Counted from the first letter of the stretch, positions 127 through 22,419 are shown. The stretch: DNA of 50,125 bases from a virus (IMGVR_UViG_3300025586_000006:1-50125); one strand, 5' to 3'. Notes: generated by a model from the sequence alone, not told the origin. Numbers and translations are program-made.

Positions 127-1737
127 TCACAATAATATCTCCTTAATTTCATCCAAGCTATTGCCTCCTTGTTCTATATTATATAACACATTAAAGATTT
201 TTTCGCTCCATCCGGAAATCAAATAAACATCATTCTTTCTAAGGTCTAAAGGAGAATCCCCATAAGAAGCCAGATTAAATAAATACAACTTAGCTTGTGG
301 AACGGCATTTTTATAATGGCCCCATAGAGTATTGATATGATTACTTCTACTTCTACCATTTGAATTCCACATTTGACCGTCTGTAAACATCATAATACGA
401 TCATATGCCTTGTTATTATCAATACACCACTGTAATACTTTCCATCCATTAGTTGAATAACCTACTTCACCTTCCCTTGAATGGATTTCATTGGTAGACT
501 TCAAAACATTATAAGATGGTAAATCATCCAACACCTTCCAGCTATCACCAAACATACCAACAGTAGCATTAGCACAACGAGTTTGTAACAACATTGCTAG
601 CATTGCACCAATATCATATAACTGTATTTGTGACTTAGGAGAAAAGGTATGTTGCATTGAACCTGATACATCTGTTGCTATCAATACAGAGTCATCACTA
701 CCAAACATATGAATATTTTCAATAGAGATTTTAACAGCCTTCTCTAAAGCATCCAATATCATAGGAGGAGTAGTGACAGTTTCCTCTTCACTTCTCGATT
801 CTTCTTCATATCCGTATCCCCAATGTCTAATAGTAGGAGTTTGCCCTAATGCTCTGTAAGCAGATAAGAACCTAAAAGGTAATTGTTTGGACCTTTTTAC
901 TTGATCATAATCAGATAATCTATCAGCAACCTTTACCATATGAGCAAATGATACCCCTTCCTTCACAAAGTTCCTCAAATTACGAATTAGTGCCATATAT
1001 CCTAATTTTCCAGAATCAATAAGTTCTTCCCATACCTCTCTTTTATCCTTACCATCCTCTTTACCTGTTTTGGATAATTCTACTTCCCAGGTGTAAGGGG
1101 TATCTAAAGAATTATTAGCAATCTTGTTCCATAGATTCTTTTGTTCCTGACTATGTGGTTTAGGATGTGAAAGAAACAAAGCATCACGAAGTTTAATTTC
1201 GGTCTTTCTATTGTATTTTGCATAATTATATTCTGAAAAAACACCAGACTCAAATACATCCTTAACACCCTTCTTTAACTGATTAGATAAACCATAGATG
1301 GTCTTATAGGTAGTATGATCACCTTTAGTTTCAGCTACTTTAGGTTCCCTTTTATTAGCCTTGACATAGTAAGCTAATAGTTCAGTTATTTCATCAGCTC
1401 TTTGAACTACTCTTCTTGTTAGCTTTCTGATAAGATCATCCTTACCTTTATAGATCTTTGTCAATTCAACTGTAAGAACTAGAGGAATGGTTCTCAAATA
1501 CATTTTTTCACGGGCATACACAGCCAGCTTAGCAGCAAACAGAGGATCAACCTTGCGTAAAGCAGTTTTAATCTTATTTAACTGATCATTTGTATCGGAA
1601 ACATAAAAGGTAGGTTGTAAAGCACTAGTACAAACTAAGGAATACAATTCCATTTCAGGAGTAAGTTTATAGGAAACATCCCCTTCATAGTTTTTTTCAG
1701 TATATTTTTTTGAAGATTGAACATTAAATCTTGCCAT
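127..1737 (-). CDS. rsr: Ro60/TROVE-domain RNA-binding protein (Rsr-like)
   Basis: A 536-residue protein, the usual length of Ro60/Rsr (about 530-540). The N-terminal two thirds has the TROVE pattern of basic helical repeats. The C-terminal third is a vWA domain with an intact MIDAS: DVSGS at residues 356-360 and a later FTDGQ near 451-455. Known Ro proteins form a ring that binds misfolded RNA ends and Y RNAs, and in bacteria they work with exonucleases in RNA decay. The ATG follows AAGGAGG. The gene is preceded by its own promoter and a 340-base structured leader, and is followed by a strong terminator, so it forms its own unit. RtcB, often linked to Ro in bacteria, is encoded at 25 kb. Confidence 0.93.
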   Translation of the reverse strand: MARFNVQSSKKYTEKNYEGDVSYKLTPEMELYSLVCTSALQPTFYVSDTNDQLNKIKTALRKVDPLFAAKLAVYAREKMYLRTIPLVLTVELTKIYKGKDDLIRKLTRRVVQRADEITELLAYYVKANKREPKVAETKGDHTTYKTIYGLSNQLKKGVKDVFESGVFSEYNYAKYNRKTEIKLRDALFLSHPKPHSQEQKNLWNKIANNSLDTPYTWEVELSKTGKEDGKDKREVWEELIDSGKLGYMALIRNLRNFVKEGVSFAHMVKVADRLSDYDQVKRSKQLPFRFLSAYRALGQTPTIRHWGYGYEEESRSEEETVTTPPMILDALEKAVKISIENIHMFGSDDSVLIATDVSGSMQHTFSPKSQIQLYDIGAMLAMLLQTRCANATVGMFGDSWKVLDDLPSYNVLKSTNEIHSREGEVGYSTNGWKVLQWCIDNNKAYDRIMMFTDGQMWNSNGRSRSNHINTLWGHYKNAVPQAKLYLFNLASYGDSPLDLRKNDVYLISGWSEKIFNVLYNIEQGGNSLDEIKEILL

Positions 1738-1744
1738 TTTACAA

Positions 1745-2052
1745 GTCCCTCCTTAGAAAAGCTAAAGGATTAAAAATTAAGGGGAGCAATAATCACCAAG
1801 AGGAGTGATTAATAGGCATTTAAGGAAGGTCGGCCAATCGACCTTACTGCTTAATTTACTACTGGCTAACGTCCCAGGTAGACGGTTAAGGTTTTTCTTT
1901 TAGCAATTTATATGAAGTATCTCTTGATTACAGCATCCCCCTGTGTAAATTTTTAGAAGAAACGATAAACGAGTAGACAGATTTTCCTCCTTTTGACGGG
2001 AGGTTCATTTCAAGTGATGTATGTCAATTCTACAGTATTCTCCCTAACAACT
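1745..2052 (-). ncRNA. Structured leader of Ro60; candidate Y RNA or autoregulatory element
   Basis: This is 340 bases without an ORF between a consensus promoter and the Ro60 start. On the minus strand it contains a hairpin CUAC(C)UGG/CCAGUAG, AAGGUCG/CGACCUU, UAAUCAC/GUGAUUA, ACAG/CUGU and a CCUCC/GGAGG stem. A last hairpin (CCUU-AG/CUAAGG) covers the AAGGAGG ribosome site of Ro60. Bacterial Y RNAs are commonly encoded beside rsr, so a processed Y RNA or a Ro-responsive leader is plausible. No T-loop consensus is present here, so the identity is inferred. Confidence 0.5.
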
Positions 2053-2059
2053 ATCTATA

Positions 2060-2088
2060 ATTCTAACACAATCAAACTAACTTGTAAA
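2060..2088 (-). promoter_or_regulatory. Promoter for Ro60 and its leader
   Basis: On the minus strand TTTACA, 17 bases, TAGAAT. The -35 box overlaps the 3' end of the JAB gene, so Ro60 can be transcribed separately from the ubiquitin-like cassette upstream. Confidence 0.8.
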
Positions 2089-2844
2089 CACATTTTTTTC
2101 ATCATCAGAATCAAACATTCCAGAATCTTCCATATATCTTAACTCTTCCTCTAAGGTTCTTTCATCATCCTTATCTTTGAGAGATTCTATATATGCTTCT
2201 ACACCGTCATCATCATCAAACCCCCGTATACCATATTGACCGTTATATTGACCATTATAAGAATTTTTTTTAAAATAGGTTTCTTTGTAGATGGTTGTTT
2301 CCCTTTTGATATTTTTTTTAATTATTTCTTCGAATTCCTCAACATCATAATCTACATCTATCTTCAATTTTACTACAGCCTTAACGATGTTCAAAGATCC
2401 ACATGGAGTTTCCCATCTTACCTGACCGTTTATACCACTCTTAGATATACAAAGTGAGATATCGTTATTTTGGTTTATCCATTCATCATCTGTGCCTGAA
2501 AAACCATTACCCATACCATGATGCGAATGAATAACACCTATAACAGGAAGTCTATTACATACAGAAGAATCAATACCTGTAACACTACCAGCAGATACAC
2601 TTTGCTTTGGTATATAAATATCATTAATATTATAACCCTCACCTATAAGGTAAGCCAACCATTCAATGTTAGTGAACTTTTCCATCAAACGCTCAATCTT
2701 ATCTTTAGCTAAAGGACTGATAAAAACATTAACAACATCAGGTGCTTTACCACATTCAGAAACAGTATCAATCTCAACCTCCCAACAAGTTTCTTTAGCT
2801 TCAACTACCTTTTTTTTATCATTCTTCCTTAGTATGTAACCCAT
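2077..2844 (-). CDS. JAB/JAMM metallopeptidase (putative deubiquitinase-like)
   Basis: A 255-residue protein with a full JAMM zinc site: Glu61, H106-x-H108, then seven residues, S116-x-x-D119. JAMM enzymes cut isopeptide or peptide bonds next to ubiquitin-like C-termini, and they process Ubl precursors in bacterial operons. The acidic tail (about 205-255) has a tandem NGQYNGQY and is probably disordered. It is the last gene of the Ubl-E2-E1-(Cys-rich)-JAB series on this strand. Its leader GAAAGGATAAGACATA is repeated exactly before the next gene upstream. A phage-tail JAB (NlpC-linked) is less likely, because no tail genes surround it and E1/E2/Ubl genes do. Confidence 0.88.
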   Translation of the reverse strand: MGYILRKNDKKKVVEAKETCWEVEIDTVSECGKAPDVVNVFISPLAKDKIERLMEKFTNIEWLAYLIGEGYNINDIYIPKQSVSAGSVTGIDSSVCNRLPVIGVIHSHHGMGNGFSGTDDEWINQNNDISLCISKSGINGQVRWETPCGSLNIVKAVVKLKIDVDYDVEEFEEIIKKNIKRETTIYKETYFKKNSYNGQYNGQYGIRGFDDDDGVEAYIESLKDKDDERTLEEELRYMEDSGMFDSDDEKNVFTS

Positions 2845-2867
2845 TATGTCTTATCCTTTCCTATAGT

Positions 2868-3071
2868 TCAGAGTTCTTTTTGTTTAAAATACTTGCAATC
2901 ATTATATTCATTCACATTATATATATAAGACAGACATTTTTGGTAGGGTGTTTTATATTTTAAATGTTCATTTGTACAATAAGAATCACCATCTAAAAAA
3001 TCACAAGTTTCACAAAACACATCACCTTTTTTAGGTTCAAAACCCATCAGTCCCCAAAATTTTTTAAACAT
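2868..3071 (-). CDS. Small Cys-rich protein inside the Ubl cassette
   Basis: A 67-residue protein with CETCDF, YC and TPYQKC plus a late C-K-Y-F, probably one zinc site. It shares the CxxC...TPYQK pattern with the product at 11252-11500, so it belongs to a small in-phage family. It sits between E1 and JAB and carries the same 16-base leader as JAB, which suggests co-expression. Its function is unknown. A zinc-binding adaptor of the Ubl system is possible, but so is an unrelated small phage protein. Confidence 0.7.
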   Translation of the reverse strand: MFKKFWGLMGFEPKKGDVFCETCDFLDGDSYCTNEHLKYKTPYQKCLSYIYNVNEYNDCKYFKQKEL

Positions 3072-3077
3072 TATGTC

Positions 3078-3659
3078 TTATCCTTTCATCAATATACCTA
3101 TGTTATTATACACTTCACTATCAGAATACTTCATAATTTTAGCAACTGTTAAAGCGGCAACTATGGATGCGGGTACTACCCATGAAGGTGTTATTGTATA
3201 ACCATCTTCTGCTTCACCCCATTCAGCCACCGTATCATTAATACTGAATGATTCTCCATCGTATCCAGCCTTGCAGTAAACGGAACCCATTGATTTCGCT
3301 ATCTTTTGGTTATTAATCTGTGATTCATAATTATCAGTACAATCCACCACCCAGTCAGTTTTTACGGCATTGAAATCCTGATATTTAAATGGTCTTGCAG
3401 ATACACTACACATAGGTCTTAGCATTTCTACAACTATCTTAACCATGTCAGCCTTGTTTTTTCCTATAAATCTTTCAGGAATATCCAAACGGTTTAGGTT
3501 GGATTCTTCAATGACATCAGGATCAAAAACATATATATCTTTGATACCCGACATAGCGGCAAATTTACAAACCCAAAAGCCAATTCCCCCTGAACCAACC
3601 ACACTTATGGATATATCAGTGTTCAAATCTAATGTAAGCTGTCTCTCGTAGATACTCAT
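3078..3659 (-). CDS. E1-like ThiF/UBA-fold adenylyltransferase
   Basis: A 193-residue protein from the ATG that overlaps the E2-like stop (TAATG); SD GGAG lies 9 bases upstream. It opens YERQL as ThiF/E1 proteins do. It then has the nucleotide loop GSGGIG (22-27), the acidic strand end at D46/D48, N54-x-N56-R57, K67 and K69, and VDCTDN (105-110). These match the ATP and Mg contacts of E1/ThiF/MoeB. C129 (VYCKAG) is a candidate active cysteine. It lacks the CxxC zinc pair of many ThiF proteins, and at 193 residues it is a minimal domain. Its role should be to adenylate the C-terminus of the Ubl encoded upstream. An upstream ATG at 3674 would add five residues. Confidence 0.9.
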   Translation of the reverse strand: MSIYERQLTLDLNTDISISVVGSGGIGFWVCKFAAMSGIKDIYVFDPDVIEESNLNRLDIPERFIGKNKADMVKIVVEMLRPMCSVSARPFKYQDFNAVKTDWVVDCTDNYESQINNQKIAKSMGSVYCKAGYDGESFSINDTVAEWGEAEDGYTITPSWVVPASIVAALTVAKIMKYSDSEVYNNIGILMKG

Positions 3660-4519
3660 TATCTCACACTCCATATGTCATCCCTAACAAAGTTATCATT
3701 TATACCCATTTGGTCTGACCTTTTATTAGATTCAAAATCCAGGGTATTACCACCATCATCTCTAAGTGTACTATGTTTTCTTAATGTTGATACTCTCATT
3801 AAACCTCTTGGAGAATGATCAGCTAATGAACCTGTATTAATAGTTTCTAATACAACTTCTGCTTGGTGTGCAATATCAAGTATATCATCAGGTGTTTTCC
3901 ATTCTCTTGGAGGGGACCATTGCCCCCAGCACTCCCTATGATAATGATTAAATGTACCAAGACCTATAGGTTTTCTAACACCCACATTCATCACCTTATT
4001 ACCACTAGTTTCAATAGTAAGGATTACATGATTTACTAACCTTTTAGAATACTTAGGGTCAATTACTCTATCATCTATATACTTAGGCCAGTAAACAGAT
4101 TGAACCAGCCATAAAAGTGTGCCATCATAACCTTTAGTAAGAGACAATCCTTTTTGTGTATGCTCATAAGTGATATCAGGCATAATATTAGAAGAATTTA
4201 TTTTCTTGTCCAGGTCTCTTTTCTTTGATTCGTATTCATTCTTAACAGTAGAAACAAAAGTGGACATTTCATCCAATTTACCTTTTATCTTTGCACCAAT
4301 ATTTAAAAGTCTTTCAGATAATTTATCCCTTAACTCATTTAGTATTTCATCTTCAATAGAGGTGTTATCACAGTCCTCTTGCACGGTCATTTTCAGAATT
4401 TTATTTCCACTTCTTATAGTAAAACCATTAGATTTTAGATCATCAATACTAAAATCATTGATATCATTCATAACATTATCCATGGTTTCTTTTATCTTAG
4501 TTTCAATAGTTTTGCTCAT
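3659..4519 (-). CDS. Putative E2-like ubiquitin-conjugating protein with coiled-coil N-terminus
   Basis: A 286-residue protein; the ATG at 4519 follows AAAGG. Residues 50-110 are heptad-rich and likely coiled coil. Residues 130-230 follow the order of an E2 core: a strand pair, then H192-x-H194-x-x-C197, a short W-x-x-W-S-P-P turn, then a long amphipathic helix ending in ETINTGS. In E2s the HPN motif is followed by the catalytic Cys, then W-x-P and a helix, so C197 is the predicted thioester residue. The assignment rests on this pattern and on the position between Ubl and E1. A TTG start 32 codons upstream is possible. The 218 bases before it show nothing firm. Confidence 0.6.
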   Translation of the reverse strand: MSKTIETKIKETMDNVMNDINDFSIDDLKSNGFTIRSGNKILKMTVQEDCDNTSIEDEILNELRDKLSERLLNIGAKIKGKLDEMSTFVSTVKNEYESKKRDLDKKINSSNIMPDITYEHTQKGLSLTKGYDGTLLWLVQSVYWPKYIDDRVIDPKYSKRLVNHVILTIETSGNKVMNVGVRKPIGLGTFNHYHRECWGQWSPPREWKTPDDILDIAHQAEVVLETINTGSLADHSPRGLMRVSTLRKHSTLRDDGGNTLDFESNKRSDQMGINDNFVRDDIWSVR

Positions 4520-4737
4520 CGTCCTTATCATCCTTTCATGTTTATAATTTACTGTATCTTTGGTTTCCCGCATCCAAAGTTCCCTAAATCCTGATAGAAA
4601 GGGTACTACTATCAATAAATACTACTTCTAAACAATACTACTCTTCTACTTTTATCTTAATCCATTAGTTCTATTTTATATAATCCTATCAAAGATTTTA
4701 AGTAATCATCCCATGTACATCATATACAGTAAACTAA

Positions 4738-5013
4738 TTAACCCGCAACGTCATACTTGCGTAATTCGATGCGATCGTCCCCTCCAACAAACTCTGGAGA
4801 TTCAGATGGTAGAATTTCATTACCATTTAAGAAAACACGAAACTTTCCCAGACCAGCATTTTTTGCAACATCACCGACGGATGATACAAAACTGGAACCC
4901 GTTTCTACATCTACCTTGGCACCATTCACGAAAACAAATGGATTAGCACTACTAACACCATCGTCTTCGAAAACTTCTTCCTCTGGAGAGTTATCCCAAT
5001 AATCATTACTCAT
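4738..5013 (-). CDS. Ubiquitin-like modifier (beta-grasp Ubl)
   Basis: A 91-residue protein: an acidic, probably flexible tail (1-24), then a beta-grasp-like module of two strands with FVFVNGAKVDV, a helix near GDVAKNAGL, and strands FRVFLNG and DRIELRKY. It ends in DVAG, with the last glycine exposed at the natural C-terminus. It is first in the Ubl-E2-E1-JAB series, with its own promoter and a GGAGG site. The end is a single Gly rather than GG, unlike eukaryotic ubiquitin, so the mature form may be made without trimming. The fold call is from pattern and context. A ThiS/MoaD sulfur carrier is less likely, because an E2-like gene and a JAB gene are present. Confidence 0.7.
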   Translation of the reverse strand: MSNDYWDNSPEEEVFEDDGVSSANPFVFVNGAKVDVETGSSFVSSVGDVAKNAGLGKFRVFLNGNEILPSESPEFVGGDDRIELRKYDVAG

Positions 5014-5047: not shown

Positions 5048-5076
5048 ATTATAAATCATTAAATAGTAAATGTAAA
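5048..5076 (-). promoter_or_regulatory. Promoter of the Ubl cassette
   Basis: On the minus strand TTTACA, 17 bases, TATAAT, close to consensus and 35 bases before the Ubl start. It should drive Ubl, E2-like, E1-like, Cys-rich and JAB genes as one unit. Confidence 0.85.
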
Positions 5077-5087
5077 CATCTTTTTTA

Positions 5088-5846
5088 TTAAATTTCGTCT
5101 TCCATTTGGTGGGACATTAAATAGTACTTCTCTGTTTCCCCTTCTCTTTCAGCCAATAACATCCCCATACCCTCTTCTTTAATATAGGAAAAATTCAATT
5201 GAAAATCTTCTGCACTTCCATTTACAACGGCCATAAGGTTTAAAAAATTCTTCAAATCAAACCTTAGAGAAAGATCATCTACATCTTTCAAATCATCTAC
5301 AAGGTCAAATTTTAAACCATTTGAAAATCTGTTTGTCCTATCAGAAGTTTCAATATTGAATATACCATTATCTACATTAAAGTACACATCACCAAATCTT
5401 GTTCCAATTTTTTTGATCTTGGCAAACGCTTCGTTCATAATGTCATCAATATCAATGGTTAAAAAATATTCTACCTTTTTTCTAACATCACCTTCAAACA
5501 CACTTACAATATCAGGTGAACAGAAATGAATATTTGATCTTTGTCTTCCACTAGATAGTATTATCTTGTTATCTTTAACCGAAATATTTGCTTCTTCCTC
5601 ATCAATAAGTTTAAGAAAAGGTATAAGCTGTTGATTAGGCTGACTAAAATTGAATTCATATTCAGCTGATTTTTTTAGAGCCATCATATTGTTAGGTATA
5701 TCTAAAACAGCCACGGCATTCCTTCTCTCCGAAATCATATCAGACTTAATTTTATCTTTAGTGAGCTCTAACCTAACAGATTCGATAGAAAAATTCAGTG
5801 TTGCTTTCCTCAATACTTCTTTAAACTCCTCCACATTAAATTTCAT
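5088..5846 (-). CDS. DNA polymerase sliding clamp (gp45/PCNA-like)
   Basis: A 252-residue protein from the ATG at 5846 (SD GGAG). It has two repeats of the clamp fold, with stretches such as LRFDLKNFLNLM and FQLNFSY in the second. Length and order match the T4 gp45 trimeric clamp rather than the 370-residue bacterial beta clamp. It tethers the phage polymerase to DNA. The two loader genes are nearby on the same strand (6660-7016 and 7871-8770), which supports the call. Confidence 0.75.
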   Translation of the reverse strand: MKFNVEEFKEVLRKATLNFSIESVRLELTKDKIKSDMISERRNAVAVLDIPNNMMALKKSAEYEFNFSQPNQQLIPFLKLIDEEEANISVKDNKIILSSGRQRSNIHFCSPDIVSVFEGDVRKKVEYFLTIDIDDIMNEAFAKIKKIGTRFGDVYFNVDNGIFNIETSDRTNRFSNGLKFDLVDDLKDVDDLSLRFDLKNFLNLMAVVNGSAEDFQLNFSYIKEEGMGMLLAEREGETEKYYLMSHQMEDEI

Positions 5847-6111: not shown

Positions 6112-6663
6112 TTACTCTCCCTTCTTCAGGAACTCTAATAGTTGTTTCAAGCATTTCACCAACTCAGTATTCTTAGGCTTGGTTCTACTAAGGGGTTCCT
6201 TTTCGGTTATTTCACCATTTAAGGACCAATATATAGCATTATCACGTACAGTCTTATTAAGGAATTCCTTTTCGGTTACTTCTTTACCATCCAAAAACCA
6301 TTGCTTCTCACCATTAGCCCATTCTACAGCAGGACCATCTGTTCTATGACGTTTATTATTCAACCACCAATGCTTATTACCATTAGCACATTCTATAGCA
6401 GGACCATCTACTCTATGGAGTTTATCATTCATATACCATGATTTATCACCATTAGCCCATTCTATAGCAGGTAGCCCACCTTCTCTATGGAGTTTGTTGT
6501 TTAAATACCATTCAGTTTTACTATCATAAACCCTTACTGTATATTCTTTCATATTTTTTCTCCCATTCGTCTTATATTGACAAAAACCTTGATACCCACA
6601 CTCACCATATAATGGAACCCTATATTTACAAGGGTTTAGTGTCTTACATTTAGGTCTAATCAT
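6112..6663 (-). CDS. WYLNGKLHR-repeat (MORN-variant/YwqK-like) protein
   Basis: A 183-residue protein with three to four copies of a 22-24 residue repeat, W-Y/F-L-N-x-K-x-H-R-x-D/E-G-x-P-A-x-E-W/C-A-N-G. This is the YwqK-type MORN variant that is common in large phages; the function is unknown. The first 37 residues are a Cys-rich segment (KCKTLNPCKY...GECGYQGFC) ahead of a second good start, MKEYTV, preceded by GGGAG. The Cys-rich part may be a fused domain or a non-translated upstream ORF. Relatives are at 9215, 10750 and 37226. Confidence 0.75.
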   Translation of the reverse strand: MIRPKCKTLNPCKYRVPLYGECGYQGFCQYKTNGRKNMKEYTVRVYDSKTEWYLNNKLHREGGLPAIEWANGDKSWYMNDKLHRVDGPAIECANGNKHWWLNNKRHRTDGPAVEWANGEKQWFLDGKEVTEKEFLNKTVRDNAIYWSLNGEITEKEPLSRTKPKNTELVKCLKQLLEFLKKGE

Positions 6664-7016
6664 AAACCCTCCTTAAACTTCACAACCATCATTGCTTCTC
6701 TTTTTGAGATTTTTCTATTAAGCATTTCCTTTTCCACATTCTTATCAAACAGTTTATCTTTAGGAGTTTTCTTTGTCCATTTGATAAATCTTTTCCCTTT
6801 TGGAACTTTACTCACGTAATACTTATATATTATATCATCTTTCAATGTAAATTGTAAACTATTCATTTTATTAACTATATCAATCAACTTAGGATCATGT
6901 GAGAGACCTAAAGTTATGATATAAGCAGAAGCGATTTTCTTATCATAGTCATACTTAGAGGTCTTATAGAATATTTGATTGAAGTAATCGAATAGAGTAA
7001 CCTTTTTAGTAGCCAT
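6660..7016 (-). CDS. Clamp-loader small subunit (gp62-like)
   Basis: A 118-residue basic protein. The segment YYVSKVPKGKRFIKW (about residues 66-80) matches the best-conserved stretch of T4 gp62 (NYLMAAVPRGKRYGKW). It is shorter than T4 gp62 (187). It lies between the clamp and the AAA+ loader genes, the same gene neighbourhood as T4 45-44-62. Its stop overlaps the start of the next gene (ATGA). With the gp44-like ATPase it would open and load the clamp. Confidence 0.75.
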   Translation of the reverse strand: MATKKVTLFDYFNQIFYKTSKYDYDKKIASAYIITLGLSHDPKLIDIVNKMNSLQFTLKDDIIYKYYVSKVPKGKRFIKWTKKTPKDKLFDKNVEKEMLNRKISKREAMMVVKFKEGL

Positions 7017-7652: not shown

Positions 7653-7874
7653 CTACATATTCTTTAAAAAAAAGAACAGCATTATTATTGATAGAAGTAT
7701 ACCCAAACCACCAGCAATCCATAATGGAGAAAGTACCCACAACCATGACCAAGCTATTGTACTTGTTAATTTCAACACTAAAAAAATTAAAGTAGGGAAC
7801 TGAGCAGCACCAACACAACTAAGTATCATCCATAATGATCCCCCTATGCCTAATATTACATTTTCTCCTCTCAT
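7653..7874 (-). CDS. Small membrane protein, WSWxWVLxPLW family
   Basis: A 73-residue protein with two to three hydrophobic segments. LKLTSTIAWSWLWVLSPLW is closely matched by LKLTGYIAWSWWWVLCPLW in the product at 28912-29130, so the phage carries two copies. The family is common in phages and is annotated only as a transmembrane protein. The start is coupled to the stop of the loader gene with SD GGAGGGG. Confidence 0.75.
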   Translation of the reverse strand: MRGENVILGIGGSLWMILSCVGAAQFPTLIFLVLKLTSTIAWSWLWVLSPLWIAGGLGILLSIIMLFFFLKNM

Positions 7875-8770
7875 ATTACCCCTCCTTTCATCATTTTGAC
7901 TGCCATGTGGATCAGGTTGATTTCCTTTATTGCCATACTATCATTCCTATAAAGATGTTCCCCTATCTCTATAATAGCGTCACCTGGAGACTTAAATTCC
8001 CCAGCATTATCAAATAAGAACCCATACAAACCAATATAATCAATCACATTACTTCTTAACGATTTTCTTAAACTATCAAGATCACCATTCTTTATCATCT
8101 CTAAAATTTCTTTGAATACTTCTTCTGACCTTGATATGATATCACTTTTGAGCACGTTATTAATGGTGTTTCCTTGTATGCCCCAAATTGTGCTCCTTAT
8201 ATCAGGATAGCATTTTTTAACTATATTTATCAACGTTTTCTTATCGTATTTAACTCTTTCGGATTTCAATATTTTTTCACAAAGTTTATAAATCTCTCCA
8301 CCAGGGGGATTTGACATTTCTATAACTTGACAACGGGATTTAATTTCAGGTATGAATAGGTGTTCATAATTGGCAAGTAGTATAAAACGGGTAATCTTTT
8401 GAACGTCCTCCATCAATTGCCTCAGCATTTTTTGAGCACCTTGCTGACCTGATGAAAGTGAATCCGCTTCATTTAATACAACAACCTTTAGGGGTGTTAT
8501 GCCCATTGAAGTAGCAAACGATTTGATTTTATCCCTCATAGTATCAATGCCCGTATCATCAGAAGCATTAACCCATAAATAATCATAAGCCGTTTTCCTC
8601 AATAGCATATGGGTAAACGTTCCCTTACCAACACCAGGTTTACCATATAATAGAAGATTAGGGACCTCTTTAAGTGCCTTTTTTAACTTAGGTTTTATGT
8701 CCTTATTGAGAATTAGGTCCTTAAATTCTTTAGGTTCATGTATGAAGGTCCATATATCACTTTTACTCAT
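7871..8770 (-). CDS. Clamp-loader ATPase (gp44/RFC small subunit-like, AAA+)
   Basis: A 299-residue protein from the ATG at 8770 (SD GGAGG). It has Walker A YGKPGVGKGT (about 42-51), Walker B VVVLNEADS (about 98-106, NEAD instead of DEAD), a sensor stretch LLANYEH, and the SRC arginine finger after EIKSR. Domain order and length fit RFC small subunits and T4 gp44. With the gp62-like protein it loads the clamp at primer ends. Confidence 0.9.
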   Translation of the reverse strand: MSKSDIWTFIHEPKEFKDLILNKDIKPKLKKALKEVPNLLLYGKPGVGKGTFTHMLLRKTAYDYLWVNASDDTGIDTMRDKIKSFATSMGITPLKVVVLNEADSLSSGQQGAQKMLRQLMEDVQKITRFILLANYEHLFIPEIKSRCQVIEMSNPPGGEIYKLCEKILKSERVKYDKKTLINIVKKCYPDIRSTIWGIQGNTINNVLKSDIISRSEEVFKEILEMIKNGDLDSLRKSLRSNVIDYIGLYGFLFDNAGEFKSPGDAIIEIGEHLYRNDSMAIKEINLIHMAVKMMKGGVI

Positions 8771-14170: not shown

Positions 14171-14246
14171 TGGGTCACCCAGAGAGGATCGAACTCTCAT
14201 CTTGCGGGTCACAGCCGCAGGCTCTAACCATTAAGCTACAGGTGAC
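14171..14246 (-). tRNA. tRNA-His (GTG)
   Basis: Normal cloverleaf with anticodon loop CTGTGAC. It has the extra G at -1 opposite C73 that marks tRNA-His, and an encoded CCA. A second, different tRNA-His lies on the other strand at 26283. Confidence 0.93.
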
Positions 14247-14252
14247 ATAACC

Positions 14253-14281
14253 ATTTCACATCATTCAATTTCCTTTGTCAA
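14253..14281 (-). promoter_or_regulatory. Promoter of tRNA-His
   Basis: On the minus strand TTGACA, 17 bases, TGAAAT. It shares its spacer with the promoter at 14039-14067. Confidence 0.65.
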
Positions 14282-14283
14282 TT

Positions 14284-14312
14284 TTTAAAAAGGCTGATAC
14301 CTAATATCAGCC
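14284..14312 (-). terminator. Rho-independent terminator
   Basis: On the minus strand, an 8-bp stem with loop TTAGG followed by TTTTTAAAAA. It separates the short RNA from the tRNA-His unit. Confidence 0.85.
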
Positions 14313-14364
14313 CAACTCCTTCTACACATGGCAGACGAGATCTGAAAACATCTTACACTCAAAA
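14284..14364 (-). ncRNA. Short RNA ending in a strong terminator
   Basis: Between the promoter at 14371-14399 and the hairpin GGCTGATA-TTAGG-TATCAGCC (14292-14312) with a T run at 14287-14291. The body has a CAGA/UCUG hairpin and an AAGGAG, but no ORF of useful length. Confidence 0.55.
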
Positions 14365-14370
14365 ACTTAC

Positions 14371-14399
14371 ATATATCATATCATCTCCTCCTTTGTCAA
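14371..14399 (-). promoter_or_regulatory. Promoter of the short RNA
   Basis: On the minus strand TTGACA, 17 bases, ATATAT (weak -10). Confidence 0.5.
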
Positions 14400-14404
14400 T
14401 TTCT

Positions 14405-14563
14405 AATTTCGCTTTCCGGAAAGACTTGGATAAGATTAATAAATTCAGACGATTAGACAGCTACTCCAGCGGTGCACTCGCTTTTTCACCAGTCCCTTCT
14501 GGAACACCCAGAAGTCATATAAATTCAAAGGGTTATGTTTGTTAGTTACTCTCTCAACGAGTT
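14405..14563 (-). ncRNA. Structured RNA family N1, leftward copy
   Basis: On the minus strand it begins with GUUGAGAGAGUAAC and AACAUAAC, then hairpin CUUCUGG-GUGUU-CCAGAAG, and near the end CUGAAUUUAUUAAUC. The same blocks in the same order occur on the plus strand at 15300-15440, with the hairpin stem changed but still paired. A CTTTCCGGAAAG palindrome follows. Confidence 0.65.
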
Positions 14564-14569
14564 AAAAAC

Positions 14570-14598
14570 ATTGTACCACACACATCACATCTTGTAAA
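14570..14598 (-). promoter_or_regulatory. Promoter of the leftward N1 RNA
   Basis: On the minus strand TTTACA, 17 bases, TACAAT. Confidence 0.8.
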
Positions 14599-14657
14599 TT
14601 AAATTTTTTCCCAAATGATTTCAGACACTTGAAAATCCTTAACCATTTGATACTCTT

Positions 14658-14686
14658 AGTATAACACAGGTCACCAACAATGTCAA
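14658..14686 (-). promoter_or_regulatory. Outermost leftward promoter
   Basis: On the minus strand TTGACA, 17 bases, TATACT. It borders the repeat region and is the first leftward promoter of the divergent control region. Confidence 0.8.
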
Positions 14687-14707
14687 GAGAAAAAATGACT
14701 GAATCAC

Positions 14708-15040
14708 ATTCATTGTAAGCGCCTGAAATTACATGATTGTATACTGTATACAGTACACCGTATACACCGTTGGATTTTCCTACACCCTAAGCGCTTGAAA
14801 TCATTGAGCCCTCAGATCAACGAGGTGGGACGGCGTCCCAGGACACACTATCCATCACGCTCACTCTAGATCGTCTATCCACCTTGATCCTGGACGCTCT
14901 CCAGGTCTATCTGTACCACCCGTAGACTCATAATGGAATCAGGCGTTTAGACAGCTGTATACAGTATACAGTATACAATGAATCCCATTCACTGTAAGCG
15001 CCTGAAATTATTGAGCCCTCAGATCAACGAGGTGGGATGC
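14708..15040. repeat. Repeat-rich intergenic region with GTATAC palindromes
   Basis: This is noncoding and visibly more GC-rich than its surroundings. CATTCAYTGTAAGCGCCTG starts two blocks (14708, 14987). TAAGCGCYTGAAATYATTG followed by GAGCCCTCAGATCAACGAGG and TGGGA occurs at 14788 and 14994. Clusters of GTATAC (TGTATACTGTATACAGTACA near 14738; CTGTATACAGTATACAG near 14955) form overlapping inverted repeats. It lies between leftward (14658-14686) and rightward (15172 on) promoters. Candidate operator cluster or origin/partition site. From 15041 to 15171 I see nothing firm. Confidence 0.65.
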
Positions 15041-15171
15041 CACCCCCAAGCCATACTACCCCCTTAGTCATGTCTGGAACACCCCTCCACGTCAATCCTA
15101 CACGCTCTCAGAGGGTATCCCTGTCTCCCATGCAGTGGTAGTCAGGGTCTCCAGAGCTATTATTTTTTCTG

Positions 15172-15200
15172 TTTACATAGCCTCAAATATATGGTACCAT
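15172..15200 (+). promoter_or_regulatory. First rightward promoter
   Basis: TTTACA, 17 bases, TACCAT. Opens the rightward side of the divergent region. Confidence 0.75.
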
Positions 15201-15265
15201 TGACGTAGTTGATGTTGAAGTTTTTTGTCTGGTAAGTCACTGATTTTTAAATTGAATTAAATCTG

Positions 15266-15294
15266 TTTACGGTTTTTGATCTGTGTGATACAAT
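15266..15294 (+). promoter_or_regulatory. Promoter of the rightward N1 RNA
   Basis: TTTACG, 17 bases, TACAAT, immediately before the N1 RNA copy. Confidence 0.75.
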
Positions 15295-15299
15295 GTATT

Positions 15300-15440
15300 T
15301 AGTTTGTTGAGAGAGCAACTTAAAACATAACAATTTTAACTGTTTACATATAAACCCATGGATGTCCTGTGGGTCAATCCGAGAAAACTTAGCGCTGAGT
15401 GAAGTGTAGGATTGTAACACCCTGAATTCATTAACCTTTT
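15300..15440 (+). ncRNA. Structured RNA family N1, rightward copy
   Basis: Starts GUUGAGAGAGCAAC, then AACAUAAC, a hairpin ACCCA...UGUGGGU with loop containing GGAUGUCC, a CAAUCC/GGAUUG stem, and ends CUGAAUUCAUUAACC. The block order matches the leftward copy at 14405-14563. No ORF on this strand. Confidence 0.65.
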
Positions 15441-15492
15441 CCAAGTCTGACCGGTCAGCACAACCAAAAACATAAAGATTTCAGATAGTTAT

Positions 15493-15629
15493 AAGGGTTG
15501 TAAAATAGAATACCTGTTTATATTTTCTTTTGCCAACTGACAATACCAGTACCTTTATCACTGCGATACTATGGACTGTTGATATTGCCACCAGAGGAAG
15601 ACAAACCCGGTTCCGCTTTACAACCCCTT
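15493..15629 (+). ncRNA. Structured RNA closed by a 12-bp helix
   Basis: AAGGGTTGTAAA (15493-15504) pairs with TTTACAACCCCTT (15617-15629) with one bulged base. The 110 bases between have no ORF. It ends 33 bases before the zinc-ribbon gene, so it may be its leader or a separate RNA. Confidence 0.55.
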
Positions 15630-15661
15630 TAAGTACCTGAAATTAAAAGGAGAGATGGATT

Positions 15662-15799
15662 ATGTTATATATTTGTAAAAATTGTGGATGGACTGGAGAG
15701 GAAGGATTTACAGAACGAAATGGTGATCCTTATGTAGGTGAGACCAAGTGGTGGACTGTATGTCCTGAATGTTTTGAGCTTATTGAAGAAGATGATTAA
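15662..15799 (+). CDS. Small zinc-ribbon protein
   Basis: 45 residues with CKNCGW and CPECF, a classic four-cysteine ribbon, and an acidic end. SD AAGGAG. First coding gene of the rightward set. Confidence 0.75.
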   Translation: MLYICKNCGWTGEEGFTERNGDPYVGETKWWTVCPECFELIEEDD

Positions 15800-15806
15800 T
15801 TTTTGA

Positions 15807-15835
15807 TTTACAGTTCAGAGTTCATGAGATACAAT
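15807..15835 (+). promoter_or_regulatory. Promoter
   Basis: TTTACA, 17 bases, TACAAT, ahead of the small basic gene at 15887. Confidence 0.8.
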
Positions 15836-15886
15836 GGTTTCAGTCTTTGTGAGAGAGAATAATTTAAACAAAAAGGAGAATGTGAT

Positions 15887-16054
15887 ATGAAGAAAATGAA
15901 ATGTGTTGTGGCTAAAAAGGGTCGTGTCTTAATGGCAAATGATAGGGTCGCTCGTAAGTTCATTAGTAAAACATCCGCAAGACGTTTCGTTGGAAATTTG
16001 GTTCAGAAATCCACCCGTTTGAGAGTGAAAGATTTTGAGATGATTACCATTTAG
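15887..16054 (+). CDS. Small basic protein
   Basis: 55 residues, strongly basic (RVARKFISKTSARRFVG). SD AAAGGAG. Not assigned; its size and charge fit nucleic-acid binding or a host-directed early peptide. Confidence 0.65.
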   Translation: MKKMKCVVAKKGRVLMANDRVARKFISKTSARRFVGNLVQKSTRLRVKDFEMITI

Positions 16055-16065
16055 TAAAGTTCAAA

Positions 16066-16086
16066 AACCCTCATTTTTTGAGGGTT
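16066..16086. terminator. Hairpin between small early genes
   Basis: AACCCTCA (16066-16073) pairs with TGAGGGTT (16079-16086). The T run on the minus side (read leftward) is better than on the plus side, so it may work in both directions or only against leftward transcripts. Confidence 0.5.
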
Positions 16087-16113
16087 GACATAAGCCCTGT
16101 TACATGATAGGGT
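16085..16113 (+). promoter_or_regulatory. Promoter
   Basis: TTGACA, 17 bases, TAGGGT. The -35 starts within the last two bases of the hairpin above. Confidence 0.6.
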
Positions 16114-16154
16114 TTGTTTCAGCTCTTAAATTTAAACAAAAAGGAGAAAGTGAT

Positions 16155-16334
16155 ATGAGAAAAGCAGATGTGTCTGTAGGCAAAACTTACATTGTGAAAG
16201 TTTCTGGCAAATTGGCCCGTGTAAAGCTGTTGTGTAAAGTTTCCAGGGGTGGCTGGATGGGAGTTAACCTTGACACCAATCGTGAGGTCCGTATCAAGAC
16301 TGGTGGAAAGCTTCGTAGGGAGATTGTAGGTTAA
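16155..16334 (+). CDS. Small conserved beta-rich phage protein
   Basis: 59 residues from the ATG at 16155 (SD AAAGGAG). VGKTYIVKVSGKLARVKLL and GGWMGVNLDTNREVRIKTGGKLR suggest an SH3-like barrel found in many phage small proteins. Function not known. Confidence 0.7.
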   Translation: MRKADVSVGKTYIVKVSGKLARVKLLCKVSRGGWMGVNLDTNREVRIKTGGKLRREIVG

Positions 16335-16342
16335 GTAAAATT

Positions 16343-16425
16343 TGTGACCATATCAACTGTAAGTAATAATTAGCAGTCAGCCGGGGTGATAACCGCAGTC
16401 AGTCTAATGAGCTTACAGGGTCACA
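16343..16425 (+). ncRNA. Structured RNA element Z
   Basis: Nested helices UGUGACC/GGUCACA (16343-16349 with 16419-16425), CUGUAAG/CUUACAG and AUUAG/CUAAU, with GCAGTCAG twice in the inner part. First of four consecutive elements between 16343 and 16884. Confidence 0.65.
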
Positions 16426-16430
16426 TCTTT

Positions 16431-16624
16431 TTAATCGTTGTAAGGGACAAAAGGGGGTCCTACTTCCAGAGAGGTGGATGGGAAGTCTACTCCAAGAGAG
16501 GTAGGGGGTCGGAAGTCTGAAAGACCAAACGTATCACAAGAGGTAAGAAAAACGCCAATCTTACATCTTAGCCTAATAGGAGTGGCGACCTGTTTACATC
16601 CCTTTTGTCTCTTGTAAAGGTTAA
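16431..16624 (+). ncRNA. Structured RNA element A (family N2)
   Basis: 16431-16455 pairs with 16600-16624 over about 20 bp, including GGGACAAAAGGG/CCCUUUUGUCUC. Inner hairpins include GUAAGA/UCUUAC. AGGAGUGGCGACCUGUU stands just before the 3' closing strand, as AGGAGUGGUGACUUGUU does in element B. It starts 6 bases after element Z. Confidence 0.7.
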
Positions 16625-16630
16625 AGAAAT

Positions 16631-16718
16631 ATAGTGGTTCATCTGAGGTGGGAGACTTGCATTGCATGTCGGGCTGGTATAACGGTCCACGCCGTTATAG
16701 TGTAAGATGAACCACTAT
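16631..16718 (+). ncRNA. Structured RNA element C
   Basis: A perfect 14-bp end helix AUAGUGGUUCAUCU/AGAUGAACCACUAU (16631-16644 with 16705-16718), with an inner 8-bp hairpin UAUAACGG/CCGUUAUA. Followed by TTTTT, so it may also end transcription. Confidence 0.7.
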
Positions 16719-16720
16719 TT

Positions 16721-16884
16721 TTAATCGTTGTAAGGGGGTAAAAAGAATCCTATGCGATGTGCGTAGGTGGTAGTTACGGGGCCGCGAGACCCTGTACAAA
16801 GAATGTGAAGGTCACACCAGCCTTACAATTCTTGCCTGACAGGAGTGGTGACTTGTTATTCTTTTTGTCCCTTAGAACGATTAA
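16721..16884 (+). ncRNA. Structured RNA element B (family N2)
   Basis: The two ends pair over about 27 bp (16721-16748 with 16858-16884) with one mismatch and a small bulge. Inner hairpins: CCUAUGC/GCGUAGG, UACGGGG/CCCUGUA and AAGAAU-GUGAAGG/CCUUAC-AUUCUU. It shares its first 16 bases and the 3' motif AGGAGUGGYGAYYUGUU with element A. Begins 2 bases after element C. Confidence 0.7.
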
Positions 16885-16918
16885 AAGGATGTAATTGTAT
16901 AAAGGAAAGGATGATACT

Positions 16919-17092
16919 ATGAATGAAAAAGAAGTAATGGAAGAGCTGTTTGGTGGTGTAGTTCAGGGTCCACCTTCAATAGATGTTATGTATCATTTAG
17001 TGGTTGACCGTGACCCAAAAGAGTTCTATAATCAAGATGTTTCGGAAGTAAAAATGGGAAATTTCATTATGGAGATGTTGAAAAGGGGGTAA
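16919..17092 (+). CDS. Hypothetical protein
   Basis: 57 residues, acidic, MNEKEVMEELFGG. SD AAAGG. Not recognised. It opens a run of tightly packed small genes. Confidence 0.6.
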   Translation: MNEKEVMEELFGGVVQGPPSIDVMYHLVVDRDPKEFYNQDVSEVKMGNFIMEMLKRG

Positions 17093-17096
17093 TAAA

Positions 17097-17294
17097 GTGG
17101 CAACATCAACAACATGCCGAAGGTGTGGAACTGAGACACATTTTACAAAGATGAGCATGATAGACTATTACGATTTGTGCTATCCGTGCAGAAGAAAGGA
17201 GGATGATGATGGAATCTTGGTTATTAGCTCAATATTCAGAGATAGAGGCTATAAAAGCAGAGATACAGGGGATGATAGCGGAAAATCAATATAG
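17097..17294 (+). CDS. Small zinc-ribbon protein (GTG start)
   Basis: 65 residues with CRRCGTETHF and CYPCRRK in the first half. GTG start behind AAAGGGGG. Its last third overlaps the next gene by 86 bases, so one of the two frames may be non-coding there. Confidence 0.5.
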   Translation: MATSTTCRRCGTETHFTKMSMIDYYDLCYPCRRKEDDDGILVISSIFRDRGYKSRDTGDDSGKSI

Positions 17295-17394
17295 GGTTGA
17301 TCGACAAGAAACTGTGACCTTTGTGGAAGAGCATTTCATAGAAAAGGCTTCAGATTTGAGAAGTATTGCAAATGTTATCATGACACATAGATGA
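17209..17394 (+). CDS. Hypothetical helical protein
   Basis: 61 residues, all-helical and charged (MESWLLAQYSEIEAIKAEI). Chosen start is the third of three ATG codons, six bases after GGAGG. Not assigned. Confidence 0.6.
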   Translation: MESWLLAQYSEIEAIKAEIQGMIAENQYRVDRQETVTFVEEHFIEKASDLRSIANVIMTHR

Positions 17395-17412
17395 AAAGGG
17401 AGGATTAAGGAT

Positions 17413-17574
17413 ATGAAAAATTTGAGGAATGCTGCAAAATATGGATCATCTGTTCGCAAATGTCGTTGTAAATCTGACTTCCAGGACAAAAAATATGGCA
17501 AGGGAAAGAGATTACACAATGTAACTACAAAAGGCTGGCGTTGCACCGTTTGTGATATAGAAAAATTTGTATAG
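17413..17574 (+). CDS. Small basic zinc-binding protein
   Basis: 53 residues with CRC and CTVC flanking a basic middle (GKGKRLHNVTTKGW). SD GGAGG. Probably one zinc site. Not assigned. Confidence 0.6.
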   Translation: MKNLRNAAKYGSSVRKCRCKSDFQDKKYGKGKRLHNVTTKGWRCTVCDIEKFV

Positions 17575-17603
17575 TATTGAAGTAGGGGTGTAGATTTTTA
17601 GAG

Positions 17604-17632
17604 TTTACATTCCCTGTTTTTTGTGTTACACT
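17604..17632 (+). promoter_or_regulatory. Promoter, GTGTTACACTAAG type
   Basis: TTTACA, 17 bases, TACACT. The core GTGTTACACTAAGTT is nearly identical to the promoters at 19055 and 19833, which makes a subgroup that may share a control. Confidence 0.85.
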
Positions 17633-17649
17633 AAGTTAAGGAGAATAAA

Positions 17650-18372
17650 ATGACCAGTAACTCATTATTCAAAGATATAGCAAAACAAGTCCACCCTGAT
17701 GTGAATGGTGGGTCTGTGAATGCCACCAAGATGATGCAAGAGGCTATCAAGCATCGTAACAATGGTGATATGCTCTTGAACCTTGCTCGTAAATGGGGTC
17801 TCAAATTGAATGGTACCTTTGATGATACTGCTTTCAATAAACGATCTTCTGGTTTCAGTGAGGAAGTGTTTGAGGTCGTTGTGGGTGCTATTATAGAGTA
17901 TACCTTCAACCACAATAGAAAAAGACATAACATAAAGGGTGTAGTTATCAATATTCGTCCCATCACTAAGGGTAGGTTTAAGGGTGCTAAGGAGTACTCT
18001 GTCTATGATTTTAGGACCCAAGTGATATGGAAACACAAGGACCGATACATCCCCGATTTTAAGGTTGTGGGTAAAGCCTCTCAGGGGGAGTTACAGTTAG
18101 GCCAAGACACTCAGGACAGAATTAAAGAGAGTAAGAAGGTGAGATCCGCTTTTTATCAATCAAGGGCTGATAATAAGTTTAGTATCCTCAACCTTCAAAA
18201 GAGTAAAGACTATCGTAACAGTAACTTAGAGGTTTTGGTGAATTATAAAACTGGACTTATGTGGAGAAAATTAGTTAGGACTACTGCTAAATGCGCCTTT
18301 GTGGAAGAATGGATGTACAGTAAAGAGCATATGATAAAGATTGGTTCTGTAATGGATACAAGGAGAATGTAA
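17650..18372 (+). CDS. J-domain (DnaJ-like) protein
   Basis: 240 residues. The N-terminus LFKDIAKQVHPDVNGG contains HPD, the J-domain tripeptide that activates Hsp70 ATPase, followed by a helix with MMQEAIKHRNNGD. The rest (about 60-240) is not recognised. Phage proteins of this kind may recruit host DnaK. First gene behind the promoter at 17604. Confidence 0.75.
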   Translation: MTSNSLFKDIAKQVHPDVNGGSVNATKMMQEAIKHRNNGDMLLNLARKWGLKLNGTFDDTAFNKRSSGFSEEVFEVVVGAIIEYTFNHNRKRHNIKGVVINIRPITKGRFKGAKEYSVYDFRTQVIWKHKDRYIPDFKVVGKASQGELQLGQDTQDRIKESKKVRSAFYQSRADNKFSILNLQKSKDYRNSNLEVLVNYKTGLMWRKLVRTTAKCAFVEEWMYSKEHMIKIGSVMDTRRM

Positions 18373-18599
18373 TGAATGAAAAGGAAGCTCAGTATTTATA
18401 TAAGTGTCGTAGGTGTGGTAAGGTGGATAGGAGTACTTGTTCAGGTGAGGATTCAGCAATGACAACTACCGTTGATATTGTTTTAGGTATACCAACAACA
18501 GGCATTACTCTTAGGTTATTTGATATGCATATTTGTAAAGATGGTAATTATGGTGTAACAGATTTCATCGGTACAGAAATTGTGGAGACTAATTATTGA
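18372..18599 (+). CDS. Small protein with N-terminal zinc knuckle
   Basis: 75 residues. CRRCGKVD and a second C/H set (C...MHICKDG). Start overlaps the previous stop (TAATG). Function unknown. Confidence 0.6.
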   Translation: MNEKEAQYLYKCRRCGKVDRSTCSGEDSAMTTTVDIVLGIPTTGITLRLFDMHICKDGNYGVTDFIGTEIVETNY

Positions 18600-18615
18600 A
18601 AGGAGGTAAAACCAT

Positions 18616-18786
18616 ATGAATAAAGCCAAAGAAGTCAAACGGATGGAGGCTGATAAAAGACAGGCATTGTATGATGTCCTTTCCCCCAAAAAGAAACTTG
18701 ATAAGCTCAATGATGGGGGTTTCAGAGCTTCCAAAGAGAGAGCAAAGCTTGGATTTCCTGAAATTCCCAAAAATTGTGTAAGATAA
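18616..18786 (+). CDS. Small basic phage protein
   Basis: 56 residues with LSPKKKLDKLNDGGFRASKERAKL, a pattern seen in small proteins of large phages. SD GGAGG. Ends four bases before the tRNA-like RNA. Confidence 0.65.
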   Translation: MNKAKEVKRMEADKRQALYDVLSPKKKLDKLNDGGFRASKERAKLGFPEIPKNCVR

Positions 18787-18790
18787 TATT

Positions 18791-19044
18791 TTGTGGTAGT
18801 GGCGGAATTGGCAAGTAAAGGCAACATGACAGGTCGAGACAGCACGAAGGATCGTAACCTCATGCTTGAGCCTTGTATGAGCAGAGAGCTTGTCATTGGT
18901 AGACGCAAGGGACGGTTACAATACATCATGTGTCGTCTGTATCGGGCAGGGGTAATGACCGAGATAGGGAATGACCCAAAAAACCTATCGTCCAGGTTCG
19001 AATCCTGGTTCAGTAATGGATGGCGGAATTCACTACTACCACAA
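18791..19044 (+). ncRNA. tRNA-like RNA with long insert and extended end helix (candidate Y RNA)
   Basis: About 254 bases. The ends pair TTGTGGTAGT/ACTACCACAA (10 bp). The 5' part GTGGTAGTGGCGGAATTGGC is typical of a tRNA-Leu acceptor and D-arm. Near the 3' end is a perfect T-arm CCAGG-TTCGAAT-CCTGG. No CCA follows, and 25 extra bases separate the T-arm from the acceptor strand. TGGCGGAATT is repeated near both ends (18800 and 19021). The middle is about 180 bases with no clear anticodon loop. Confidence 0.6.
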
Positions 19045-19054
19045 CAAAATTATG

Positions 19055-19083
19055 TTTACATCTTCAAATTTTTGTGTTACACT
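19055..19083 (+). promoter_or_regulatory. Promoter, GTGTTACACTAAG type
   Basis: TTTACA, 17 bases, TACACT; the same extended core as at 17604 and 19833. Confidence 0.85.
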
Positions 19084-19123
19084 AAGTTTAGAATTTTGAA
19101 TGAAAGAGAGAGGAGATAAAAAA

Positions 19124-19321
19124 ATGATACATGAATTGATAGTACCTGCTTGTGTGGGGTGTAATAAAGTAGATGGTGATATCTGTATAGCGTACGCAAA
19201 ACCCGCTATGAAGCATCGTATATTTACCTGTCCATTGAAGAGTGATAAGATAATTGAGGGCGGTGAAAAGGCTAAAAAATTCATCAACCCTATAAAAGCA
19301 TCCAAGAGAGGTAATAGATAA
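19124..19321 (+). CDS. Small Cys-containing protein
   Basis: 65 residues from the ATG at 19124 (SD GGAG). CVGC, C and C in the first 40 residues suggest a zinc site. Basic C-terminus. Not assigned. Confidence 0.6.
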   Translation: MIHELIVPACVGCNKVDGDICIAYAKPAMKHRIFTCPLKSDKIIEGGEKAKKFINPIKASKRGNR

Positions 19322-19322
19322 T

Positions 19323-19829: not shown

Positions 19830-19832
19830 TTG

Positions 19833-19861
19833 TTTACATTCTGAGAATTCTGTGTTACACT
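19833..19861 (+). promoter_or_regulatory. Promoter, GTGTTACACTAAG type
   Basis: TTTACA, 17 bases, TACACT; third member of the subgroup. Confidence 0.85.
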
Positions 19862-19892
19862 AAGTTTAAATTTGAGTGAGGAGAAAATAATT

Positions 19893-21143: not shown

Positions 21144-21195
21144 AAAATGATTATATCTCTATGTGTGTAGGGGTACAATCGAAAGGAAATACAAC

Positions 21196-21471: not shown

Positions 21472-21474
21472 TGA

Positions 21475-22082: not shown

Positions 22083-22093
22083 GAGGATTAACA

Positions 22094-22360: not shown

Positions 22361-22389
22361 TTTACAATTTTCTGGAAAAATGTTACCAT
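22361..22389 (+). promoter_or_regulatory. Promoter
   Basis: TTTACA, 17 bases, TACCAT. Confidence 0.8.
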
Positions 22390-22419
22390 AAAGTATAAAT
22401 AGAAATAAGGAATAAAATT

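Follow-up and report, generated by a model that had tools for sequence, protein, structure and literature searches.

Bacterial operons that combine a ubiquitin-activating (E1) and a ubiquitin-conjugating (E2) type protein with a ubiquitin-like protein (Ubl) and a JAB peptidase were described by Iyer et al. 2006 (PMC1779556), who also reported Ubl and JAB genes together in the tail clusters of lambdoid phages. The accessible part of that survey contains no phage with the full E1/E2/Ubl/JAB set; it assigns rhodanese, SirA, cysteine synthase or thiolase-type partners to sulfur operons and takes the combination of an E2-like protein with JAB as the mark of conjugation operons. Here we describe such a set on a phage. 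IMGVR_UViG_3300025586_000006:1-50125, an IMG/VR virus record of 50,125 nucleotides (the whole stretch analysed, hereafter the window), carries genes for a Ubl, an E2-like protein, an E1 and a JAB peptidase, all on the minus strand (5013-2077). Since about 45 other contigs keep these four genes in the same order behind clamp genes, under purifying selection, the arrangement is not due to chance. We consider it rather probable that with this cassette the phage has its own means of putting a Ubl on proteins and taking it off again, expressed together with the phage replisome.

In Bil, Bub and the Cap2/Cap3 forms of cyclic oligonucleotide-based anti-phage signalling systems (CBASS), E1, E2 and JAB chemistry is likewise part of phage-host biology and the ThiF core is shared, but all of these systems are host-encoded. 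Cap2 is an E2-E1 fusion. Membership in Bil or type II CBASS was rejected, as the phage E1 is a single domain of 193 residues, its Ubl has one domain and there is no E2-E1 fusion; in Bil, by contrast, BilA carries a pair of Ubl domains, and BilD a second adenylation domain besides its Cys domain (PMC11354881). The tail-assembly proteins TAPI (Ubl) and TAPK (JAB-NlpC) of lambda and T1, as described in the accessible part of PMC1779556, also join a phage Ubl to a JAB, but lack E1 and E2 and lie among tail genes, not replication genes. The sulfur carriers ThiS, MoaD and CysO with ThiF or MoeB share the Ubl fold and a minimal E1, to which the cassette adds an E2-like protein and a tailed Ubl, with no sulfur partner genes seen.

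The type 6d operons of the Iyer classification are, we assume, the PRTRC (ParB-related ThiF-related) cassette. PRTRC has separate Ubl, E2-like, ThiF/E1 and JAB proteins in a mobile-element setting, like the phage set, and profiles built from eight plasmid loci, located with a PRTRC_C query, match it at the superfamily level (hhalign 96% for ThiF, 28% for JAB); the stretches of plasmid p5482 and of part of pMOL28 that were read contain no PRTRC. However, PRTRC loci include ParB, E and F proteins where the phage cassette neighbours clamp genes, and in the phage E2-like protein the conserved His stands before the Cys, not after it. With hhalign values of 0.2% for the Ubl and 3.3% for the E2, and no TIGRFAM match for either, identity with PRTRC was rejected. 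Named phages searched with E1, E2, JAB and clamp yielded no cassette relative; the named phage Rctr197k does encode a ThiF along with a JAMM-like protein, but in a different setting. In a full-text literature search no paper was found that brings together phage genomes and the terms Ubl, ubiquitin-activating and ubiquitin-conjugating, most subscription papers being out of reach, and the novelty of a phage-borne full set is provisional.

A four-gene cassette in a T4-like replication locus

As the initial annotation had proposed, the four genes follow one another in the order Ubl, E2-like, E1, JAB behind a near-consensus promoter (Table 1). The E1 start codon overlaps the E2-like stop (TAATG), and the 67-residue Cys-rich ORF (open reading frame) between E1 and JAB has no family match in domain scans. 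Ratios of nonsynonymous to synonymous substitution rates, calculated between the window genes and those of contig L008, are approximately 0.19 (Ubl), 0.21 (E2), 0.13 (E1) and 0.17 (JAB), and all four genes are under purifying selection.

Table 1. Positions of the cassette, the replication genes and other features of the window
Feature	Position	Strand	Evidence
sigma70-type promoter TTTACA-17-TATAAT, preceding the Ubl gene	5048..5076	-	11/12 match
Ubl, 91 residues, ThiS/MoaD-like beta-grasp, C-terminus YDVAG	4738..5013	-	AF2 model, Foldseek, family alignment
E2-like protein, 286 residues, invariant C197 with H192/H194 shortly before, N-terminal coiled coil 56-109	3659..4519	-	conservation, predicted secondary structure
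E1, minimal ThiF/MoeB-type adenylyltransferase, 193 residues	3078..3659	-	PF00899, motifs
Cys-rich ORF, 67 residues, between E1 and JAB	2868..3071	-	ORF call; outside conserved core
JAB/JAMM metalloprotease	2077..2844	-	Prok-JAB match, metal-site residues E61, H106, H108, S116, D119
Sliding clamp, gp45-like	5088..5846	-	assigned by position: synteny with gp44/gp62, family alignment
gp62-like clamp-loader small subunit	6660..7016	-	assigned by position; between gp44 and clamp in nearly all records
gp44-like clamp-loader large subunit	7871..8770	-	phrog_168 clamp loader 1.7e-58
Ro60/TROVE RNA-binding protein	127..1737	-	2e-31
Gap between Ro60/TROVE and JAB	1738..2076
27 tRNA genes and tmRNA gene	14171..48112
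tmRNA gene	47743..48112

Relatives were collected by profile scans with E1, E2, Ubl and gp44, giving about 45 further IMG/VR contigs (labels L###; up to 235 kb), among them near-duplicates and contigs that end before the cassette does. Throughout this set gp44, gp62, clamp, Ubl, E2, E1 and JAB lie on one strand in the same order, with the clamp gene immediately preceding the Ubl gene wherever a record shows both, and the position is held across clamps down to 24% identity. The window has the same T4-like gp44-gp62-clamp module, gp44 being recognised by phrog_168 and the other two by position; its clamp has no match of its own to any named phage record. The IMG/VR record, the T4-type clamp loader and a gp23 capsid gene in three sister contigs bear out the phage origin claimed earlier. 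Two cassette copies lie in contigs of a Thermoplasmata metagenome-assembled genome (MAG) bin, as might be seen if the cassette were an assembly artefact or misbinned host genes. This explanation has next to no probability and is refuted by synteny: T4-type replication genes flank the cassette in the contigs collected, gp23 is found in sister contigs, and GIY-YIG homing endonuclease-like genes are inserted in the cassette. The latter sit at differing points (L008:8424-9095, L079:8193-9029, L091:9661-10590, and L095:7256-7876 and 9588-10322, all on the minus strand); homing endonuclease genes often enter conserved genes.

A gp44 tree of 52 rows has 42 scored members, of which 33 carry the cassette; the other nine are spread over about five positions. 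Within this phage clade the cassette is old and has probably been lost repeatedly, but wherever it occurs with a clamp it lies at this locus. Because some clamp-locus relatives are without it, we regard it as accessory yet locked to the clamp locus. We also scored promoters as matches out of 12 to the -35 and -10 elements. At a cut-off of at least 10/12, a promoter precedes the Ubl gene in 79% of 33 records compared to 5% of shuffles, nearly always in the form TT[TG]ACA-17-TATAAT or similar, while such promoters are less common before the clamp (18%), E1 (23%) and JAB (13%), with E2 (38%) in between. Conservation of the promoter before the Ubl gene argues for host sigma70 transcription of Ubl on top of the replication transcript.

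Ubl, E1 and JAB

The 91-residue product had been predicted to be a small beta-grasp-like protein ending in Gly, and structure prediction with Foldseek agrees: the AlphaFold2 (AF2) model, with a predicted local distance difference test (pLDDT) score of 75, has a beta-grasp fold of topology bb-a-bb-b, and its best solved relatives are ThiS proteins (prob 0.99, though E only 0.02). The C-terminus, DVAG in the window, is near-fixed across relatives as [YF][DE]xAG, once VPG. It is followed by zero to six lineage-specific residues (A, T, R, I, LV, SK, VE, NCN, NVNP, RANR, NVVLV or GEITG). Such tails argue for maturation, presumably by JAB, and the pattern is that of pro-Ubls cut back by a peptidase. 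Pfam, NCBIfam, PADLOC and PHROG scans gave no model matching the phage Ubl or E2-like protein.

The minimal ThiF/E1 with intact nucleotide motifs and the JAMM peptidase with all metal residues were both correctly recognised at the outset. The window E1 matches PF00899 with E 9e-22 and has a YxRQ Arg finger, GxGGIG, DxD, NxxR, GxNK and DCTD; these motifs (as YxRQ, GxGGxG, DxD, NxxR, GxNK and DxTD) are kept in 31-32 of 32 relatives. In the PDB, the family profile finds yeast Uba1 (3e-13), BubCD (2e-6) and Cap2 (1e-6), but the phage E1 is a single domain without a dedicated catalytic-Cys domain. The window JAB alone matches Prok-JAB below the curated cut-off (E 2.5e-4), all seven relatives match (7/7, best 5e-7), and the JAMM residues E..HSH..S..D are intact in 31/31 alignable JABs. 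The tail of the window JAB is not conserved. Long tails of no assigned family are also present on the JABs of L009, L023, L030 and L031, and in L015:6863-8608 (= L004:6585-8330) JAB carries a fusion to two zinc fingers of the RanBP2/NZF type, with additional CxxC motifs.

The ThiS likeness of the Ubl and the minimal ThiF type of the E1, together with the 27 tRNAs and tmRNA (transfer-messenger RNA) encoded in the window, would also suit a sulfur-carrier pathway. Here, a thiocarboxylated ThiS/MoaD-type Ubl would give sulfur to, e.g., tRNA or DNA, the 286-residue protein would be the sulfurtransferase or acceptor, and JAB would free the product, as in CysO/Mec+. We consider this improbable: in the loci that were read, no rhodanese, SirA, cysteine synthase or thiolase is fused to the cassette genes or placed among them, an E2-like protein with JAB marks conjugation operons in the accessible part of Iyer et al. 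2006 (PMC1779556), and the C-terminal Ubl tails require a protease step. That E1 has no fused rhodanese or sulfur-pathway domain also speaks for conjugation, and tagging chemistry is likely.

Bacterial counterparts and the E2-like protein

The E1 profile also retrieved bacterial loci, 33-37% identical, from Omnitrophota, Thermodesulfobacterium and two MAGs without classification. Where fully read, these cassettes (L043-L048, L065-L068) have all four parts in the same order; our scripts did not recover the Ubl as an ORF in L046, L047, L065 and L068. The bacterial Ubls have 77-79 residues and end in -YVKAG, once in -YVKPGC (i.e., tailed), and the E2-like proteins have 195-217 residues, with H109 and C121 invariant in 10/10 members. 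Comparing phage and bacterial families, hhalign gave 100% for E1, 99% for JAB and 97% for Ubl (4e-10). For the E2-like proteins the value is 43% (E 2.5e-4), aligned across the active-site Cys, and 24% (8e-4) with a broader bacterial set; the best control pair with the phage E2 profile, PRTRC_B at 0.013, is weaker than this. We take the bacterial cassettes to be, most likely, genuine homologues of the phage cassette.

The Omnitrophota and Thermodesulfobacterium cassettes resemble the phage set in a Ubl ending in -VKAG, the JAB motif HSHHxMGAFHS..D and the PSWV motif of E1. They differ in a shorter E2 without the long N-terminal extension, an E1 of approximately 310 residues with a C-terminal Cys-rich tail, Cys-rich JAB tails, and neighbours that are SpoVG-like or conjugation-like genes instead of clamp genes. 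In Omnitrophota (L045, L065, L066 and L068), the cassette is bordered by a SpoVG-like gene and by several small ORFs, likewise conserved; L067 has a TraD-like ATPase and a DUF932-like gene nearby and may belong to an integrative element, and a second Ubl-like ORF (L043:5268-5672) lies upstream of the Thermodesulfobacterium cassette. The E2-like protein was found in 7/384 sampled genomes of the phylum of genome G004, and a genome scan with the E2 profile gave no matches. None of the Ubl and E2-like proteins scanned from the bacterial cassettes is covered by a model in Pfam, NCBIfam or PADLOC. An apparently undescribed bacterial Ubl family is also brought to light.

For the phage E2-like protein, the initial annotation had named an H-x-H...C...W-S-P-P core. 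The His and Cys parts hold, with Y193, H194, C197, W198 and G199 present in 32/32 sequences and H192 in 31/32 (an HxH..CWG core), whereas W-S-P-P is found in the window only. The AF2 model, built from seven sequences, is of low confidence (pLDDT 61); predicted are a long helix (56-109), strands 125-129, 135-143, 151-153, 163-172 and 175-182, the HxH..C loop and a helix at 210-223. This order is compatible with UBC folds, whose strand-to-Cys and Cys-to-helix spacings are similar (13 residues from Cys to helix here compared to approximately 14). A Foldseek search of this low-confidence model in BFVD was uninformative, and hhalign to eukaryotic UBC sequences, a lead-level comparison only, gave no match. 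Two tandem paralogues, both with the HYH..CWG core, are present in L031:5231-6973 and in L038.

We base the E2 label on operon logic, on the Cys that never varies and on the counterpart in bacteria, and the 286-residue protein is the probable transfer enzyme of the cassette. Alternatively, it could be a dedicated substrate or regulator, with E1 alone loading Ubl on its Cys or Lys to give a Ubl-modified replication accessory protein. No E2 homology or fold was detected, and the predicted coiled coil spans about one-fifth of the protein, as this would allow; but a single invariant Cys in an HxH..CWG loop with strands before it, a helix after it and near-UBC spacing, and the His and Cys kept by all bacterial members, make a substrate or regulator a poor candidate.

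A possible role at the replisome

For conjugation by the cassette, we envisage the following sequence. Host sigma70 polymerase would read the strong dedicated promoter to produce Ubl along with the E2-like protein, E1 and JAB. Where the Ubl has a tail after ...xAG, JAB would trim it. E1, probably a MoeB-type homodimer in which the Arg of YxRQ completes the partner's site, would adenylate the C-terminal Gly. Because E1 lacks a dedicated catalytic-Cys domain, activated Ubl may then pass directly to Cys197 of the E2-like protein, which, bearing its coiled coil, would join Ubl to a target, and JAB could undo this. The most likely target would be the clamp or its loader, or else a replisome partner, given that the cassette is locked behind gp44-gp62-clamp and by analogy with modification of the eukaryotic clamp (PCNA). 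The invariant neighbourhood, overlooked in the initial annotation, points to the replisome and not to the virion modification or counter-defence proposed there.

The same chemistry might instead act early in infection on a host defence, transcription or replication protein, or compete with Bil or CBASS. The dedicated sigma70-type promoter suggests early expression, the repeated absence in relatives resembles that of a conditionally useful function, and Bil and CBASS are examples of Ubl chemistry in phage-host conflict (PMC11354881, PMC11153139). Against such a host-directed role, the cassette has stayed at the clamp locus across highly divergent clamps, and its likeness to Bil or CBASS is at the superfamily level only. 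Counter-defence genes are usually mobile among accessory regions, and we consider host targets somewhat unlikely.

Several observations weigh against the conjugation model set out above. The initial proposal of a Ubl conjugation cassette on a phage stands as regards a coherent, conserved Ubl/E1/E2-like/JAB set, but the E2 fold lacks support from model, Foldseek or profile: no E2 is among the 50 PDB matches listed for the low-confidence model, and the E2-like profile matches neither UBC nor Pfam. The C-terminal Gly of the Ubl is missing in 3/32 relatives, all deep (L017 AA, L018 ASAS, L035 PASS). Several relatives replicate without the cassette, with no E1 anywhere in L145 (171 kb) and L133 (133 kb), contigs that may be incomplete, and in L029 there is E1-JAB but no Ubl, E2 or clamp less than 7 kb away. 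A clamp target has no coevolution support either: only C110 and K200 track the cassette (retained by 97% and 88% of the relatives that carry the cassette, compared to 44% of those that do not), and they are not significant by independent pairs, a test underpowered by far too few contrasts.

Right after the cassette lies the Ro60/TROVE gene, which also follows JAB in L008, L014, L015, L018 and L035. A Y-RNA-like RNA could lie in the gap before it, where Rfam had no match; over the first 12 kb of the window, Rfam yielded nothing useful. The tRNA and tmRNA genes lie within 50 kb of phage DNA, and the tmRNA gene fits a bacterial host.

Bacteria are known to have full sets for Ubl conjugation, some of them anti-phage; here, a whole clade of uncultured T4-like phages appears to have one, tied to DNA replication. 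We tentatively suggest, as a possibility short of an even chance, that T4-like phages evolved or kept Ubl modification of their own replisome, likeliest of the clamp or its loader, as a counterpart to PCNA ubiquitylation and SUMOylation in which a minimal E1 hands Ubl directly to E2. If true, the cassette would provide a small, readily reconstituted model for minimal Ubl conjugation, and a case in which bacterial viruses may have been where modification of a replication clamp, or of its partners, arose.

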